Part shown: positions 15,293 to 29,660 of the stretch, piece by piece
How positions within the stretch are numbered: position 1 is the stretch's first letter
Layout of the letters: each line of letters starts with the position of its first letter
NCBI GenBank assembly: GCA_027624045.1
Contig: JAQBUE010000036.1
Location: 1-35,078 of the forward strand
Length of the DNA: 35,078 nt
Source of the DNA: Acidobacteriota bacterium
GTDB taxonomy: Bacteria; Acidobacteriota; Terriglobia; Bryobacterales; UBA6623
Direction of reading: 5' to 3'
Program-made: the position numbers and the translations under genes
The notes under the pieces: generated by a model
Seen by the model: the letters and a program-made list of their open reading frames with translations, nothing else
Database searches by the model: none
Told to the model about the DNA's origin: nothing

Positions 15293-15436
15293 ATTGAGGG
15301 AAGAACTCCGGCCGACGAGCGGGGCTCGCACCCGTGGCGCCGCGGAGGCTTTCTTGACTTTATCGCTATGGGTATGCGATTGTTGCCTATTCCTCTAGTG
15401 GCAGGCCGCTGGGGAGGGACGGATGTCGCTTCGCGT

Positions 15437-16222
15437 ATGCCTTCAGGTCGAAAACTGTACCTGAGATTTGACAGTACTCTTTCGAGTGTTGAGGCGGCGG
15501 AAATTATCGTTCAGAAGCTGGCGAAAGATCACGGACTCGACGACGACGTGATCGAGCAGCTCTCGGTGGCGGTCCGTGAAATTACAGTAAACGCGGTTAC
15601 CCATGGGAACGGGTACAGCAAGGAGAAATCGGTCTATTTTTCGATAGTTACAAGCCCAACTCAAATTTCCATCACGATCCGGGATGAAGGCAAAGGGTTC
15701 AACCCTGATGCCGTTCCGGACCCCACGGCCGGAGACAACCTTTTGAAGAACTCGGGCCGAGGGCTGCTGCTCTCGCGGGCATTCGTCGACGAAATTAGTT
15801 TTCGTCCCGCATCACCGCACGGCACAGAAGTTATGATGGTGAAGAAGATAGCGCAAACATTGAGCGAGAAGGAGGAGGAAGTGAGTCTAGCAACCAACGT
15901 TCGTGACGTGGATGGCGTTACGGTGGTCGATTTAAGCGGACGCATCACACTAGGTGAAGGGTCCGGCAAGCTTCGTGATACGGTCAGGGAAATTCTCGGC
16001 AAGGGACAGAAGAAGATTGTGCTGAACCTCGGAGATGTCGGCTACATCGACAGCTCGGGTCTCGGCGAGCTCGTATCCAGCTACACCACAGCCTCGAATC
16101 AGGGCGCCAAAGTGAAGCTGGTCAACCTGCAACAGAAGGTGAGCGATCTGCTTCAGATCACCAAACTCTATACCGTGTTCGAGACGTTTGAGTCCGAGCC
16201 CGAAGCCCTTCTGAGCTTCTGA
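15437..16222 (+). CDS. Fused anti-sigma serine kinase (RsbW-like) and STAS anti-anti-sigma factor (RsbV-like)
   Basis: One frame encodes two normally separate partner-switching proteins. Residues about 5-136 form an RsbW-type GHKL kinase: N-box QLSVAVREITVNAVTHGNG (41-59), ATP-binding IRDEGKGFNP (81-90) and the lid GRGLLLSRAF (108-117). After a short charged linker (SEKEEE) a complete STAS domain follows (about 150-261) with the phosphoacceptor motif YIDSSGLGE; Ser206 aligns with SpoIIAA Ser58. In standard systems the kinase binds a sigma factor and phosphorylates the STAS protein; here both lie in one chain. A strong internal ribosome-binding site and an in-frame GTG at 15881 suggest that the STAS part is also made alone. 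The N-terminus is uncertain: in-frame ATGs at 15368, 15374 and 15437 exist, and I chose the last because it sits just before the kinase fold. Confidence 0.82.
   Translation: MPSGRKLYLRFDSTLSSVEAAEIIVQKLAKDHGLDDDVIEQLSVAVREITVNAVTHGNGYSKEKSVYFSIVTSPTQISITIRDEGKGFNPDAVPDPTAGDNLLKNSGRGLLLSRAFVDEISFRPASPHGTEVMMVKKIAQTLSEKEEEVSLATNVRDVDGVTVVDLSGRITLGEGSGKLRDTVREILGKGQKKIVLNLGDVGYIDSSGLGELVSSYTTASNQGAKVKLVNLQQKVSDLLQITKLYTVFETFESEPEALLSF
15870..15883 (+). promoter_or_regulatory. Internal Shine-Dalgarno and GTG start for a free STAS protein
   Basis: Inside the kinase-STAS frame, a purine-rich AAGGAGGAGGAA lies directly before an in-frame GTG at 15881. The first AGGAGG is five bases upstream, a good spacing. 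Initiation here would give a 113-residue STAS protein (15881-16222) starting where stand-alone anti-sigma factor antagonists start. The codons also encode the linker KEEE, so chance cannot be excluded. Confidence 0.6.
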
Positions 16223-19384: not shown

Positions 19385-22300
19385 CTAGCGCTTCTTGAGA
19401 TCGGCGAGGAACTGCTGAACGTCAGGATCACTCCTCCAGCCCCGCGCCAACTCCTGGACCGCCGCTTGCCGGACATCTTCGTGTGTATCCTCGGCGGCGC
19501 GTTGTTTGAGCAGAACGACGGTGTCGGGGTCGGCTTTCCAGCCCCGCGCCAACTCCCGCACCGCCGCTTGCCGGACATCTTCGTGTGTATCCTCGGCGGC
19601 GCGTTGTTTGAGCCAGACGACGGTGTCGGGGTCGGATTTCCAGCCCCGCGCCAACTCCTGGATCGCCGCTCGCCGGACGTATTCGCTTTTATCCTCGGCG
19701 GCCCGTTTCTGAAGCAGGACCACAGTGTCGGGGTCGGATTTCCAGCCCCGCGCCAACTCCCGCACCGCCGCTTGCCGGACATCTACGTCTGTATCCTCGG
19801 CGGCGTGTTGTTTGAGCAACGCGACGGTGTCAGGGTCGGATTTCCAGCCCCGCGCCAACTCCCGCACCGCGGCATACCGGACATCTTCGTGTATGTCCTC
19901 GGCGGCGCGTTGTTTGAGCCAGACGACGGTGTCGGGGTCGGATTTCCAGCCCCGCGCCAACTCCCCGACCGCCGCTTGTCGGACCGGGTAGTCGCGATCC
20001 TCGGCGGCGCGTTGTTTGAGCAAGGCCAGGGTGTCAGGCTCGGATTTCCAACCCCGAGCCACCTCCTGGACCGCTGTTTGTCGGACCTCCCACTCGTCAT
20101 CTGAGGCGGCGCACTGCTTGAGCAAGACAATGGTCTCAGGGTCAGATTTCCAGCCCCGTGCCAGCTCCCGGACCGCCGACCATCGGACCCTATAGTGGTG
20201 GTCGTGGACGGCGCGTTGCTTGAGCAAGACAATGGTCTCGGGGGCGGATTTCCAGTAGTGTGCTAGCTGCAGGAGTGCCGACTGTCGGACTGCCCCGCTG
20301 TTGTCCTTACCGGCACGTTTCATAAGCCAAACGAAGGTCTTGTCGGATTTCCACCCCTGGGCTAATTCCTCGATCGCCGCTTGCTGGATACCCATGTCTT
20401 GATCCTCGGCGGCACGTCGCTTGAGCCAGACGACGGTGTCGGGGTCGGATTTCCAGCCCCGCGCTAGTTCCTGAACGGCAGCGTGCCGGACCATATACTC
20501 GTCATCCTGGGTGCCTCGCTGCTTGAGCAGCGCGACGGTGTCGGGGTCGTCTTTGAAGCCCCGCACCAAGTCCACCAGGGCCTGCCAGCGTACTTCCCGG
20601 CTGACGTCCTCGGCGGCGCGCTGCTTGAGCAAGACGACGGTGTCAGGATCGGATTTCCAGCCCCGCGCCAACTCCTGGATCGCCGCTTGCCGGACCGGAT
20701 ACTGGTAATCCTCAGTGACGCGTTGCTTTAGTAACGCGAGGGTCTCTGGGTCGGATTCAAAGCCCCGGGCCAGCTCCTGGACCGCCGCTTGCCGGACCGC
20801 CCAATGGTCATCTCGGGTGGTGCGTTGTTTGAGCCAAATGACGGTGTTGGGATCGGCTTTCCAGCCCCGCGCCAACTCCTGCACCGCCGCTTGCCGGACC
20901 TGCCAGAAATCATCCTCGGCGGCGCGTTGTTTGAGCCGGACAATCGTGTCAGGATCGGATTTCCAGCCCCGCGCCAACTCCTGGACAGCTCCTACTCGTA
21001 CTCGCGCAACTTGCGTAGCCTCATCGCTCCACGGTTCGTAGTAGTAGGGGAGGTCGAACCCAGTGAGAGCTATGAGCCTGCGACGCGCCACGGCCCGAAC
21101 ATCATGGACTAGCCCAAGCTCGCGAACCTCCAGCAGGCACTGAGCGGCGAGGATCACCGCCCGGTGACCGTCTTCGGCGTCATGTTGTTCCAATAACTCG
21201 TTAGCGCAAGCGCCCGCGTGTTCGGGGCCGATGAGGCCGCTGAGCAGGCGCAGCACCTCATGCCATTCATCTTTGGGCCACCCGTCGCGGTAGACACGGC
21301 GAAGGTCGGCGATCTTGAAGTCGGTCGTTTTCTCAAGACGATACTTGAGGTCGCGGGCGCGGAAGTACTCCAGAAAGGTGCGATGGACGAAAGCGTACTG
21401 ACGGTCGCCCATGTAGGCAAGCATGAAGTTGCGTTCCTGGAGCATCCGAATAAGCTTGTCGGCAGCCCACCACGCACCGTCGACGCCAAGTTGCTTCAAC
21501 TCCTCCTCGACGATGGGCTTGAGCTTGTCTTCGGAAATAAGGTTGCCCGCGAGGCCTGTTTCCTCGTCTTCCGCGGCGGCGGCGACGCGCTCCAGTATTC
21601 GCATCTTTTGCCTTGGGCCTAGTTTGTCGGTGATGTCAAGAGCTTGTTTGTCGTCCTTCAGCTCTTCGAACTTTTCGAGGTCCCAGTTCTTGAGCAGCAG
21701 CTCGGCGCATTTCTCATAGAGGTCGCAGCGGTCGCGGGGCAGGTCCTGATTGCGGCTCAGGATGGCCATCATCGTGAGCAGAAGCGGGTTGGCGGCCAGC
21801 TCGCGGATGGCGGGGGATTCGTCGAGAGCGCTTTGCAAGCGGGACTGATAGCGTTCGCGGTCGGCGACGTTACTGAAAGCGGCCTGATACCAGACGTTGA
21901 TGAATCGATCGATCTCGGGCTCTTCGAAATCCTGCAGCGTGAACTGCTCGAAGCCGGCGTCGCTGAACTTTTGCGGGTTGGTTGAGCCCGTGGAATAGCC
22001 GTGAATGCGCGTGGTGACGATGATGCGGGCCTGGGGGTAGTCGGCGGCGAAACGGATGATGGCGGCAACGGCGTCGCTACGATCGCCTTCGGTGACCTCG
22101 TCGAGACCGTCGAACAGGACCAGGGAATCGTTGTCCTTCAGGTGCTGGTCGATCTCGTTCCTCGGGAGACAACAAGTGGCGCGGTTGCCGTGCTGCAGGT
22201 AGTCGAGAAAGATATGTTCGCGCTTCTCGCGCATGGCCTGGCGCAGCTCGATGAAGAGAGCTAGAGAGTTGCCGTCGGGATCCTCGGCCCAACGCAGCGC

Positions 22301-23239
22301 CAGATGCTTGAGTAGCGTTGATTTACCGAGCCCCGGGTCGCCGAGGATGACGAGCCGCTGCTGGGCCGGGTCGTCGACGACTTCCATGAGCGGGCGGGTG
22401 CTGAGCTGGGCGTATTCCTGCTTGCGCTGCTGGACCTCTTCTTCATCGCTTTCGATGCCGTGGCCGCGCTGCTCTTTCTTGAGCAGTTGGAAGTAGTCGC
22501 GGGTGACGTCGCGGGGCGGCAGGGCCTGCTTGACGGATTGCGGAACGTAGATGGTTTCGAGGCGGACAGCGTTGTCGCGCTCGTAGTAGGTCCAGTCGTC
22601 GGTGAGCGGGGCGAGCTGTAGATGGGCGAAGGCTTCTTTAATGGCGCGGGCGTAGCGGGGGAGGTCGAAGGCGCGTGCGGGGCCGGCGATGCGCTCGGTG
22701 GCGTCGGCGGCTCTCATGTTGGCCTCGGCGCTTCGCTGGGCGCTCTCCGCCGTGCGGATGGTGGCCAGGGCTTGAATGACGGGGCGGAGTTCGGGGTCAG
22801 CGACGCCGAGACGTTCGACGGCCTTGGCGTAGAGCTTGGCGACTTTGGCCCAATCGAAGTCTTCGGGGAGAGTGATGAGGCGCTCGCCGCCGGGCAGGTA
22901 GAACTCGTCCCATGTGCCGCGCAGCAGTTTCCAATCTACAGGGGACTGGCCGTCGAGGGGGGCCTGAAGAACGTCCTGCACGGAGTGGTTCTGGAGGAAG
23001 GCTTCTAGGGCTTCCCGGTAGGGTTCGGCTGCGAGTGTGGGGAGGTCGATAACGCTGTCGAGCTCTTTGCCGAAGCGGAGGGTGAAGGCTTCGTTGAGTT
23101 TCGTCAGCGTGTCTTTGGTGGTGACGGCTTTGAAGGTGTCGTCGAGTTTTTGTTTGGCTAGCTGTCTGGCGCGGTCAGCGATGTAGGCCTTGAGAAACGG
23201 GGTGACGACCGCGGCGATGGTAATCCAATCAATGGGCAT
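19385..23239 (-). CDS. NACHT NTPase with sixteen tandem HEAT-like repeats (NLR-like STAND protein)
   Basis: A 1284-residue signal-transduction ATPase with the three-part layout of bacterial NLR-like (bNACHT) antiphage proteins. Residues 1-285 are an alpha-helical N-terminal region of unclear family, presumably the effector or adaptor part. The NACHT core has Walker A ILGDPGLGKSTLLKH (about 298-312), Walker B SLVLFDGLDEV (372-382) and IIVTTRIHGYS, then a winged-helix-like region with the hallmark FVHRTFLEYFRARDL. After a helical linker the C-terminus is sixteen 34-residue repeats of the pattern VRQAAVQELARGWKSDPDTV. In characterised systems the repeats sense a trigger and NACHT oligomerises to switch on the effector. 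No Shine-Dalgarno sequence precedes the ATG. Immune function is inferred from architecture; a developmental or housekeeping STAND role is the alternative. Confidence 0.88.
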   Translation of the reverse strand: MPIDWITIAAVVTPFLKAYIADRARQLAKQKLDDTFKAVTTKDTLTKLNEAFTLRFGKELDSVIDLPTLAAEPYREALEAFLQNHSVQDVLQAPLDGQSPVDWKLLRGTWDEFYLPGGERLITLPEDFDWAKVAKLYAKAVERLGVADPELRPVIQALATIRTAESAQRSAEANMRAADATERIAGPARAFDLPRYARAIKEAFAHLQLAPLTDDWTYYERDNAVRLETIYVPQSVKQALPPRDVTRDYFQLLKKEQRGHGIESDEEEVQQRKQEYAQLSTRPLMEVVDDPAQQRLVILGDPGLGKSTLLKHLALRWAEDPDGNSLALFIELRQAMREKREHIFLDYLQHGNRATCCLPRNEIDQHLKDNDSLVLFDGLDEVTEGDRSDAVAAIIRFAADYPQARIIVTTRIHGYSTGSTNPQKFSDAGFEQFTLQDFEEPEIDRFINVWYQAAFSNVADRERYQSRLQSALDESPAIRELAANPLLLTMMAILSRNQDLPRDRCDLYEKCAELLLKNWDLEKFEELKDDKQALDITDKLGPRQKMRILERVAAAAEDEETGLAGNLISEDKLKPIVEEELKQLGVDGAWWAADKLIRMLQERNFMLAYMGDRQYAFVHRTFLEYFRARDLKYRLEKTTDFKIADLRRVYRDGWPKDEWHEVLRLLSGLIGPEHAGACANELLEQHDAEDGHRAVILAAQCLLEVRELGLVHDVRAVARRRLIALTGFDLPYYYEPWSDEATQVARVRVGAVQELARGWKSDPDTIVRLKQRAAEDDFWQVRQAAVQELARGWKADPNTVIWLKQRTTRDDHWAVRQAAVQELARGFESDPETLALLKQRVTEDYQYPVRQAAIQELARGWKSDPDTVVLLKQRAAEDVSREVRWQALVDLVRGFKDDPDTVALLKQRGTQDDEYMVRHAAVQELARGWKSDPDTVVWLKRRAAEDQDMGIQQAAIEELAQGWKSDKTFVWLMKRAGKDNSGAVRQSALLQLAHYWKSAPETIVLLKQRAVHDHHYRVRWSAVRELARGWKSDPETIVLLKQCAASDDEWEVRQTAVQEVARGWKSEPDTLALLKQRAAEDRDYPVRQAAVGELARGWKSDPDTVVWLKQRAAEDIHEDVRYAAVRELARGWKSDPDTVALLKQHAAEDTDVDVRQAAVRELARGWKSDPDTVVLLQKRAAEDKSEYVRRAAIQELARGWKSDPDTVVWLKQRAAEDTHEDVRQAAVRELARGWKADPDTVVLLKQRAAEDTHEDVRQAAVQELARGWRSDPDVQQFLADLKKR
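19388..21001 (-). repeat. Coding tandem array: 16 HEAT-like repeats, 102-bp period
   Basis: The 3' third of the NACHT gene is a tandem array. The period is 102 bp (34 residues); repeat 7 has one residue fewer and repeat 16 is cut at 29. Most units keep VRxAAVxELARGWKSDPDTV and LKQRAAED. Residues 31-34 of each unit differ strongly (for example DFWQ, YQYP, DMG, HHYR, DEWE, THED), and residue 22-23 alternates between WL, LL and AL. Units 11-16 near the 3' end are the most similar to one another, pointing to recent duplication there. Confidence 0.95.
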
Positions 23240-26694: not shown

Positions 26695-27606
26695 ATGTTG
26701 GGAGGCATGCTTACACCTGCGATTCTAGCCCCTCTGCGGGCCATCGCGGAGATCCTCGTCCTTACGTACTTGCTGTACCACTTGCTCCTCGTCATCCGTG
26801 GGACGCGCGCCGCACCCGTATTCTTGGGAATGCTGATTGTAGCCGCGCTTTACCAAGTATCCGGATGGCTGGGATTCGGGGCGATCCGCTGGCTGATCGA
26901 GAGTGTCCTGCCCTACGCGGCGCTCGCAATCATCGTGATTTTTCAGACCGAAATCCGCCGCACCCTGCGGCAGCTTGCTCTCAGCCTCGTCCCGCGCGGA
27001 CGCCCAAAGCAAGTCGCGCGATCTGATTACGAAGACATCATTTTCGCTGTGGCGCAGCTTTCCGAGGACAAGGTCGGCGCCTTATTCGTCCTGGAGCGTG
27101 AAACCGGTTTGAGGACTTTCGTGCAAAGCGGCGTGGTATTGGACGCCCGGCTGACTTCCGATCTGTTAATTACCATCTTCCAGCGGCAGGCGCCGTTGCA
27201 CGATGGAGCTGTCATCATTCGCCGCGGTCAGGTCGCCGCGGCGGCCTGCTTTCTTCCGCTCACGACGAACCCCGAGCTCGTGCGCTCGCTGGGCACCCGG
27301 CATCGCGCCGCGATCGGCATTACCGAAGAAAGCGATTGCATGACGATCGTTGTGTCCGAAATGACGGGCCGCATCTCGATCGCCTTGGGCGGTAACATTG
27401 AGCAGGACGTATCGCTCGACCGCGTGCGCCTGCGAATCATCCAACACTTCGGACCGATTGTGGCCGCGCCTCTCGGCACACCCGTACCGCTGATCGAGAC
27501 GCCTGCCAAAGAGACCTCCGCCGAAGGGACCCCCGCCGAAGAGACCCCTGCGCAGCCCATCTCGGATTTACCACAAGGCAACTCAACCGCGAGCACGGGA
27601 AGCTAG
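26695..27606 (+). CDS. cdaA: Diadenylate cyclase CdaA
   Basis: Membrane-bound enzyme that makes cyclic di-AMP from two ATP. Three hydrophobic segments lie at about 12-34, 40-58 and 68-84, then the DAC domain (about 110-250). The catalytic motifs are intact: the DGA triad in PLHDGAVIIRRG (168-178) and RHRAA at 202-206. A Pro/Glu/Thr-rich tail with imperfect repeats (PAKETSAEGTPAEETPAQ) follows and is unlike standard CdaA. An in-frame ATG at 26707 is an alternative start. An AGGAGGT at 26666-26672 lies 22 bases upstream of the chosen start, too far to be ideal. The cdaR and glmM genes follow directly, as in Bacillus and others, and CdaR is known to modulate CdaA. Confidence 0.93.
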   Translation: MLGGMLTPAILAPLRAIAEILVLTYLLYHLLLVIRGTRAAPVFLGMLIVAALYQVSGWLGFGAIRWLIESVLPYAALAIIVIFQTEIRRTLRQLALSLVPRGRPKQVARSDYEDIIFAVAQLSEDKVGALFVLERETGLRTFVQSGVVLDARLTSDLLITIFQRQAPLHDGAVIIRRGQVAAAACFLPLTTNPELVRSLGTRHRAAIGITEESDCMTIVVSEMTGRISIALGGNIEQDVSLDRVRLRIIQHFGPIVAAPLGTPVPLIETPAKETSAEGTPAEETPAQPISDLPQGNSTASTGS

Positions 27607-27617
27607 CGAATAAAGCA

Positions 27618-28277
27618 ATGCAAAGGATTCCAGACGCGCTACGGCCGAATTTTTGGCTCAAGGTTGGGGCCTTCGCGGCCGCGCTGATGATTTGGACATT
27701 CTCGGTGACACAGCCGGAAATCGAACGTGTCCTGGAGGCGGAGCCGCAGTACGTCAACGTCCCCGACGGGCTTGAAATCGATCCCGATCAGGCCCATCGC
27801 GTGACGGTCGTGATCCGCGGCGTGCGCCGAAAACTTGATGAGATCGACGCCGGTCCACTCAACGCCGAACTGGATCTGTCTGGAGTCAGCGGGCCGGGCG
27901 AGCAGACCTTTACGGTGACAAGCGCAAGCCTGAACCTGCCGCGGGGTATCGAGTTCGTCAGGGCCATCCCGTCGCAATTGCACCTTCGGTTGGAGCCGCG
28001 GGTCCGCCGGGAAGTGCCCGTCGAGCCCAGTTTTGTGGGCGCTCCCGATAGCGGTTATGTCCTCGATTCCTATACCGTGACCCCTCCCGTTCTCACCATC
28101 GTCGGCCCGCGCAACCGCCTTAGCCTGCTGGCGGCCGTGACAACGGATCGCATCGATCTCAGCGGTGCCGCGGGAGCGAAAAGCTTTCACGCAGCGGTGT
28201 TCGTTTCGGATCCCTATGTTCGTTTTGAAGGGGACGCACACGTTACGGTTAACGTCGAGATGAGGAGATCCCCCTGA
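27618..28277 (+). CDS. cdaR: CdaR/YbbR-domain protein, regulator of CdaA
   Basis: CdaR is a membrane-anchored extracytoplasmic protein that binds and modulates the diadenylate cyclase. The 219-residue product has one N-terminal membrane segment (LKVGAFAAALMIWTFSV, about 14-30) followed by two beta-rich YbbR-like repeats (about 35-115 and 116-205), with motifs such as VTVVIRGVRRKLDEID and VPVEPSF/VLTIVGPRNRL. It is shorter than Bacillus CdaR, which has four YbbR domains. It lies 11 bp after cdaA and 36 bp before glmM, so co-transcription is likely. Confidence 0.85.
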   Translation: MQRIPDALRPNFWLKVGAFAAALMIWTFSVTQPEIERVLEAEPQYVNVPDGLEIDPDQAHRVTVVIRGVRRKLDEIDAGPLNAELDLSGVSGPGEQTFTVTSASLNLPRGIEFVRAIPSQLHLRLEPRVRREVPVEPSFVGAPDSGYVLDSYTVTPPVLTIVGPRNRLSLLAAVTTDRIDLSGAAGAKSFHAAVFVSDPYVRFEGDAHVTVNVEMRRSP

Positions 28278-28313
28278 GGGGTTCCCGTTGGCGGAATTCC
28301 CCCAATAGAATTC

Positions 28314-29660
28314 ATGGCGAAGCAACTTTTTGGAACAGACGGCATCCGCGGCGTGGCCGGTGAGCCGCCCCTCGACGATCGCACCGTATTTGCGGTTGGT
28401 CTGGCCCTCGGTGAGAGCTTGCGGGCACAAGATGAGCAGTCGAACGTGCTCATCGGCATGGATACTCGCCAGTCGGGTCCCAAGATCGCCGGACTTCTCG
28501 CCGCGGGCTTGCTGGCCAGGAACGTTCCGGCTCGTTTCGCCGGCGTCATCAGCACGCCCGGTGTAGCCTACTTGACTCGCAGCGGTGAGTTCTCGGCGGG
28601 CATCATGATCTCCGCCTCTCACAATCCTTTTCGTGATAACGGCATCAAAGTGTTTGGATCTTCAGGAGCCAAGCTCGATGACGCCCGCGAGGCGACTTTG
28701 GAGACCGCGATCCTCCGCCTGCGGGAATCTGACGAAACGCTCTCGGCCGCCACGCTTACACCCGAGCCGGCTCTCGACGAGGCGTACCTCGACCATCTCG
28801 TTTCTGCCGCCAAGGCCGCTCCAGGGCTCATCGCCAAAACGGTGATCGTCGACTGCGCGCACGGAGCCGCATCCGCCCTCGCGCCGAAGCTTTTCGAGCA
28901 GTTGCGAGTCGATGCCCGGATCTTCGCGAATCAGCCGGACGGCAGCAACATCAACGAAGCCTGCGGCTCGATGCACATGCAAAGTCTTCAGGACCGGGTC
29001 GAGCGAAGTGGCGGTGCTATCGGGGTCGCTTTCGATGGCGATGCCGATCGAGCCCTGTTCGTCGCCGAAGACGGCTCGCTCGTTGATGGGGATGTGATCC
29101 TGTTGCTGGCCGCCCGCTACTTGGCCGCTTCCGGCGCGCTTCCCGGAAATCACATCGTCACAACGATCATGGCCAACATGGGCCTCGAGAAGGCGCTGGC
29201 CGACGACGGCATCTCGATGGCGCGCACGCCCGTCGGCGATAAGTACGTCCTCGAAGAGATGCTGCGCAGCGGCGCGGCCTTAGGCGGAGAGCAGTCAGGC
29301 CACATCATCTTCCGCGCCTATGCCTCGACCGGCGACGGACTATTGACGGCCCTGATGATGCTGCGAATCCTTGCCGCCGAGAACAAACCCTTGAGCGAGC
29401 TGAAACAACGGCTGAAGGTGTTTCCTCAGGCCCTCGAAAACGTGCGAGTCTCCCACCAGCCCGCCATCGAAGATGTGCCCGTGCTCGCCGAAGCGGTTGA
29501 GAGAAGCAGCCGCGAGCTGAACGGCCTGGGCCGAATCGTCGTCCGCTACTCGGGCACCGAGCCGCTCGCGCGCATCATGGTGGAAGCCGAAACACGCGAT
29601 CTGGTCGACCGGCATACGCAGCGGCTTGTCGAAGTTTTCAAACGGGAGTTGGGCGCTTGA
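28314..29660 (+). CDS. glmM: Phosphoglucosamine mutase GlmM
   Basis: GlmM converts glucosamine-6-phosphate to glucosamine-1-phosphate for UDP-GlcNAc and peptidoglycan synthesis. The 448-residue length is standard. Hallmarks are present in order: LFGTDGIRG at the N-terminus, the phosphoserine loop ISASHNPFRDNG with Ser102, the metal site FDGDADR (about 240-246), the sugar-binding loop GGEQSGHIIF and the phosphate-binding site RYSGTEPLARIMVEA. Linkage to cdaA-cdaR is known in other bacteria and couples c-di-AMP signalling to cell-wall supply; CdaA-GlmM binding is reported there. Confidence 0.96.
   Translation: MAKQLFGTDGIRGVAGEPPLDDRTVFAVGLALGESLRAQDEQSNVLIGMDTRQSGPKIAGLLAAGLLARNVPARFAGVISTPGVAYLTRSGEFSAGIMISASHNPFRDNGIKVFGSSGAKLDDAREATLETAILRLRESDETLSAATLTPEPALDEAYLDHLVSAAKAAPGLIAKTVIVDCAHGAASALAPKLFEQLRVDARIFANQPDGSNINEACGSMHMQSLQDRVERSGGAIGVAFDGDADRALFVAEDGSLVDGDVILLLAARYLAASGALPGNHIVTTIMANMGLEKALADDGISMARTPVGDKYVLEEMLRSGAALGGEQSGHIIFRAYASTGDGLLTALMMLRILAAENKPLSELKQRLKVFPQALENVRVSHQPAIEDVPVLAEAVERSSRELNGLGRIVVRYSGTEPLARIMVEAETRDLVDRHTQRLVEVFKRELGA

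Follow-up and report, generated by a model that had tools for sequence, protein, structure and literature searches.

The closest described counterparts of the gene analysed here are the SpoIIAB-SpoIIAA and RsbW-RsbV pairs of Bacillus, which have the same domains, motifs and folds. Rv1364c of M. tuberculosis is a PAS-PP2C-RsbW-like-RsbV-like protein that is reported to phosphorylate its own antagonist domain (PMC7693655; PMC12143880). Internal in-frame initiation, in turn, has been reported for Cas11b, which is made inside cas8b (PMC11899642), and for a second endolysin made inside lysA of phage Ms6 (PMC3111421). Here we describe a locus at which a partner-switching pair appears to have lost the stop codon between its two genes, and we consider it fairly probable that its single frame yields both a fused kinase-STAS protein and, through a retained internal start, free STAS. 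The locus lies in a window of 35,078 nucleotides (the whole stretch of DNA that was analysed) from a 5.5-Mb draft genome in 342 contigs, G000.

All parts of the gene lie on the forward strand. The frame runs from ATG 15437 to TGA 16222 (15437-16222, 261 aa) and passes from a kinase domain through a linker into a STAS domain without meeting a stop; Pfam matches both halves (HATPase_c_2, 8e-26; STAS, 3e-16), which bears out the claim of the first-pass annotation that the two proteins are fused. Upstream of ATG 15437 the frame is open back to 15251, and this ATG aligns with that of both congeneric genes (G001 and G002). The RsbW/SpoIIAB-type HATPase_c_2 domain (15470-15844, residues about 12-136) has all three expected boxes, namely the N box REITVNAVTHGN (15575-15610) with catalytic-type Glu48 and Asn52, the G1 box DEGKGF (15683-15700), whose D83 and G85 are invariant in 26 kinase rows, and the G2 box GRGL (15755-15766), whose GRG is invariant in the same number of rows. 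Together these features place the domain among the RsbW/SpoIIAB-type GHKL serine kinases. Its scores fall short of the equivalog cut-offs for SpoIIAB (50.5 versus 135) and for RsbW (41 versus 145), so we treat it as a relative of these proteins and assign it to neither. A linker of 12 residues (15845-15880, residues 137-148) takes the place of the relatives’ stop codon and leads into the STAS domain (15896-16207, residues about 154-257; Pfam, TIGR00377), which exceeds the TIGR00377 cut-off (66.5 versus 53.45) and carries an intact D-S-[ST/A]-G phosphosite, here D-S-S-G. By these family criteria, the STAS half is predicted to be an RsbV/SpoIIAA-like anti-sigma-factor antagonist. The expected phosphorylation site is Ser206 (codon 16052-16054, in YIDSSGLG), a serine in 23 of 23 STAS rows and at the position of SpoIIAA Ser58 and RsbV Ser56. 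In sequence and fold, the kinase half matches the SpoIIAB structures 1til and 1l0o, and the two halves separately match SpoIIAB/RsbW and SpoIIAA/RsbV structures (1til, 1tid, 1th8, 6m36). AlphaFold2 returned two well-folded domains joined by a disordered linker (residues 141-147, pLDDT below 50; pTM 0.55). The model leaves the domain orientation undefined and lends no support to a docked cis complex of the kind that the cis autoinhibition proposed in the first-pass annotation might involve; a linker modeled as flexible allows such docking without showing it.

The second product would come from within this frame. The Shine-Dalgarno sequence AGGAGGAGG (15870-15878), which encodes part of the peptide KEEE, places its first AGGAGG at a normal spacing of 5 nt from GTG 15881-15883, and the frame opened by this codon (15881-16222) predicts a free STAS protein of 113 aa. 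The predicted anti-Shine-Dalgarno pairing of GTG 15881, at -12.2 kcal/mol, is the strongest among 508 in-frame internal ATG, GTG and TTG codons in the 23 long open reading frames of the window, and only one other of these codons has a hexamer Shine-Dalgarno sequence. It also beats the starts of all 23 frames (best, -11.7), a comparison that is approximate since the list of frames is mechanical; the test against chance covers the genes of the window only. Given a K-E-E-x-V peptide, the window’s codon usage would be expected to produce AAG GAG GAG...GTG in about 7% of cases. Taken alone, the site is thus suggestive of more than chance. What carries it further is its exact placement on the STAS start of relatives, together with its recurrence in independently fused genes (below). 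In dozens of relatives, the separate STAS gene begins with GTG/ATG-AGY at the position that aligns with the GTG-AGT of the fused gene. The locus has the pattern expected of a gene with internal initiation, namely a strong, conserved Shine-Dalgarno sequence with an in-frame start at a domain boundary. The earlier proposal that a strong AGGAGG and an in-frame GTG remain where a stand-alone STAS gene would begin is correct, and these elements are conserved in the fused genes.

We looked for the fusion in other genomes. The two other species of the genus that were compared (G001 and G002; 81% identity) are fused at the same junction, G006, from another genus of the same family, is fused through a different linker and has ATAGGAGGAAGATTTTCAATG, and in G427, which belongs to an Acidobacteriota family far from this one, the gene is fused as well, with GTTGGAGGTGAAGGAATG. 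Across the order (257 genomes, 71 of them with a match at E ≤ 1e-50), a frame without a stop across both domains was found only in the three genus members and G006, and a phylum sample of 396 genomes had the fusion only in G000 and G427; both surveys would miss copies diverged past the thresholds or split across contigs. Among the listed matches that span both genes, all others have a stop. Nine genomes with long open STAS frames (G024, G052, G067, G095, G101, G108, G112, G131 and G048) were considered as candidate fusions and rejected, and a plasmid search returned no close homologue. The first-pass annotation had suggested surveying relatives for a stop between the domains, and it is present only beyond the genus, in more distant relatives. 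These comparisons also settle whether an error of sequencing or assembly removed the stop. A draft of 342 contigs with a purine run at the junction invites the suspicion, but two other species with separate assemblies share the junction, and the G006 genome, assembled in 3 contigs, has its own linker. Because the fusion is common to G001, G002, G006 and G427, a base-calling error has a negligible probability and we regard it as ruled out.

The family shows a gradation of arrangements, from separate genes (G004, G005 and G010-G017) through a 4-base ATGA overlap in which the Shine-Dalgarno sequence encodes the kinase tail (G007, G008 and G009) to the fused gene. The overlap is seen in loci L047, L048 and L049 of these three genomes and in L050 of G018, where the last codons of the kinase are the STAS Shine-Dalgarno sequence and the kinase stop overlaps the STAS start (ATGA or GTGA). 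Such an overlap is likely to be the step before fusion. In a tree of concatenated kinase and STAS sequences (30 taxa, LG+G4), G006 groups with the unfused G007-G016 (UFBoot 100), and a tree in which G006 is forced to be monophyletic with the genus loses 50 log-likelihood units and is rejected (p-AU 0.0003). The position of G006 among unfused genomes and the rejection of this monophyly indicate that the stop was lost independently at least twice; G427, a distant outgroup, is probably a third case. An ancient fusion that was later undone elsewhere by gain of a stop needs more steps and is disfavoured.

Another possible account is that the loss of the stop was nearly neutral, with free STAS doing the work, the STAS tail on the kinase being harmless and the switch operating as in two-gene relatives. 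In close relatives the end of the kinase gene already often overlaps the STAS start (the ATGA of G007, G008 and G009), which is one base away from fusion and fits this account, as do at least two independent fusions that are each rare. However, a substrate tethered at high local concentration beside an active kinase is unlikely to be inert, and the genus has kept the fusion while its species diverged to 81% identity, so that we hold this account to be distinctly unlikely.

The opposite account is that the fused protein alone matters, as a self-contained cis switch resembling the C-terminal half of Rv1364c, and that the internal Shine-Dalgarno sequence and GTG are ancestral relics. It can draw on the flexible linker of the AlphaFold2 model and on Rv1364c itself, for which autophosphorylation and autodephosphorylation of its own antagonist domain have been reported (PMC7693655). 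Rv1364c, however, has its own phosphatase domain, whereas the fused protein here has none, and every fused lineage keeps the Shine-Dalgarno sequence and start at undiminished strength. In five of five fused genes, no other in-frame internal Shine-Dalgarno pairing is as strong as that at the STAS start (-12.2, -11.8, -11.8, -10.2 and -13.6, ranking first of 14, 12, 12, 22 and 18, respectively), and separate STAS genes show equal strength (G004, -11.1; OX638379, -10.3). Within the genus, the linker codons that precede the site have diverged while the Shine-Dalgarno sequence and start are unchanged: AGGAGGAGG is identical in G001 and G002, and all three species of the genus share the five consecutive codons AAG GAG GAG GAA GTG, against a match of about 53% at degenerate codons for identical amino acids between G000 and either congener. 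Shine-Dalgarno sequence and start together match at 17 of 18 nt, compared with 74% in the kinase half. We estimate that each of these tests corresponds to about 0.04-0.09, which would give modest support to selection on the start. The support goes no further since the site is ancestral and constraint may act on the KEEE peptide, which could be conserved for protein reasons; as the Shine-Dalgarno sequence and start are older than the fusion, their presence could be a relic. We judged the codon conservation of the window too weak to serve as sole proof of selection on the start. Weighing these points, we find it unlikely that the fused protein acts alone, and we return to the reading in which both products are made.

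According to this two-product reading, a partner-switching pair of a kinase and its STAS substrate would have passed from two genes to one frame through stop loss. Since no stop lies between the domains, translation of the kinase must run on into STAS, which makes a kinase-STAS protein of 261 aa the primary product to be expected. Ribosomes would also initiate at GTG 15881 by means of the strong internal Shine-Dalgarno sequence and produce the 113-aa STAS alone, so that free STAS is probably made as well. Pairing at the kinase start is weak in the genus (-4.1 to -3.3), and with a weak site there and a strong one at the STAS start, free STAS is likely to be in excess, as is plausible for two-gene relatives; the stoichiometry of the switch may thus differ, as the first-pass annotation suggested. 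By homology with the SpoIIAB/RsbW families, the kinase would phosphorylate the tethered STAS on Ser206, in cis or across a kinase dimer, and would act in trans on the same serine of free STAS. The phosphate would be removed by a phosphatase of the SpoIIE type whose gene lies elsewhere, and unphosphorylated STAS, tethered or free, would capture the kinase and thereby release its target. The tethered arrangement may have no purpose beyond that of a kinase with a tail. It is tempting to speculate that tethered and free STAS compete for one kinase at a ratio given by the two ribosome-binding sites, which would set the threshold of the switch, and that selection would then have arrived at this design on at least two independent occasions, probably three, but we consider this extension doubtful.

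As for the partners of the switch, no sigma factor above the SigB/F/G cut-off was found in any genome searched, and the target of the kinase may for this reason be something other than a sigma factor. SpoIIE phosphatases are present in five of five genomes searched, and the seven matches in G000 all lie outside the window. In the unfused G004, a GAF-SpoIIE protein (L093:8799-10127) is encoded about 3 kb downstream of the kinase-STAS pair and is a candidate phosphatase for the switch. These genomes also have a second, unfused kinase that adjoins a STAS gene (e.g., G000:C333 and G006:C1:1531615-1532341). Upstream of the fused gene, a motif TTGACTTT..GGTATGCGATTGTTGCC (15354-15387, forward strand) is similar in an alignment with G002, G006, OX638379 and G004 and is the probable promoter region. 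A scan with the sigma-70 consensus found no promoter and did not call this motif. The pattern TTGACTTT ... GGTGTGCGATTGTTGC, with a −35-like box and no standard −10, precedes the kinase gene across genera and may be a promoter used by a special sigma factor. The neighbours of the fused gene are conserved across the genus, with an FAD oxidoreductase gene on its upstream side and, on its downstream side, a gene for an outer-membrane beta-barrel (L061, L062 and L034), and the beta-barrel and glyoxalase genes near the locus are shared with OX638379, the relatives’ genes in both cases being named by eye. Elsewhere in the window, the reverse strand encodes a 1284-aa STAND-type NACHT NTPase (19385-23239) that starts with an NNH2 domain, has about ten matches to HEAT_2 repeats and gave no match in PADLOC, and the forward strand (26695-29660) encodes a CdaA-type diadenylate cyclase, identified by domain match, followed by a YbbR-like protein and a phosphoglucosamine mutase resembling GlmM, both identified by eye. 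The order CdaA, YbbR-like, GlmM-like is familiar from Firmicutes.

Should the gene yield both products, a single mRNA would determine how much of the switch’s substrate is tethered and how much is free, and the locus would offer a clean natural test of the part that stoichiometry and local concentration play in setting partner switches. The graded series in the family, from separate genes through the ATGA overlap with the Shine-Dalgarno sequence inside the kinase end to fusion, shows how a two-gene operon can become one gene with two products. Automatic annotation is expected to record only the long protein and to miss free STAS. In the open-licence literature, we found no paper that joins Acidobacteria with partner switching and no account of a partner-switch kinase and its substrate that have recurrently lost the stop between them in Acidobacteriota while keeping the internal ribosome-binding site. 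The closest known systems also include the two-gene loci of other Bryobacterales (e.g., G004 and OX638379), which have the same pair with the same Shine-Dalgarno sequence and start and, in OX638379, shared neighbouring genes, but in which the two proteins are kept apart by a stop or by the ATGA overlap of 4 bases. The Bacillus SpoIIAB-SpoIIAA and RsbW-RsbV pairs differ in that the kinase and then STAS lie here in one polypeptide with an internal start. Rv1364c shares the order of kinase and then STAS on a single chain; it has a PAS sensor and a PP2C phosphatase domain, whereas Pfam finds neither in the 323-aa frame here, and the available text on Rv1364c makes no mention of the free-STAS product that we predict for the fused gene. 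Cas11b and the Ms6 lysin resemble our case, in which the C-terminal domain is predicted to be made separately by initiation within the frame, but their second products are reported from experiment, whereas here the product is predicted and the arrangement arose from stop loss between former genes. Taken together, kinase-STAS fusion and internal initiation are each known, and the locus is a recurrent variant of a familiar bacterial switch, not a system of a new type.
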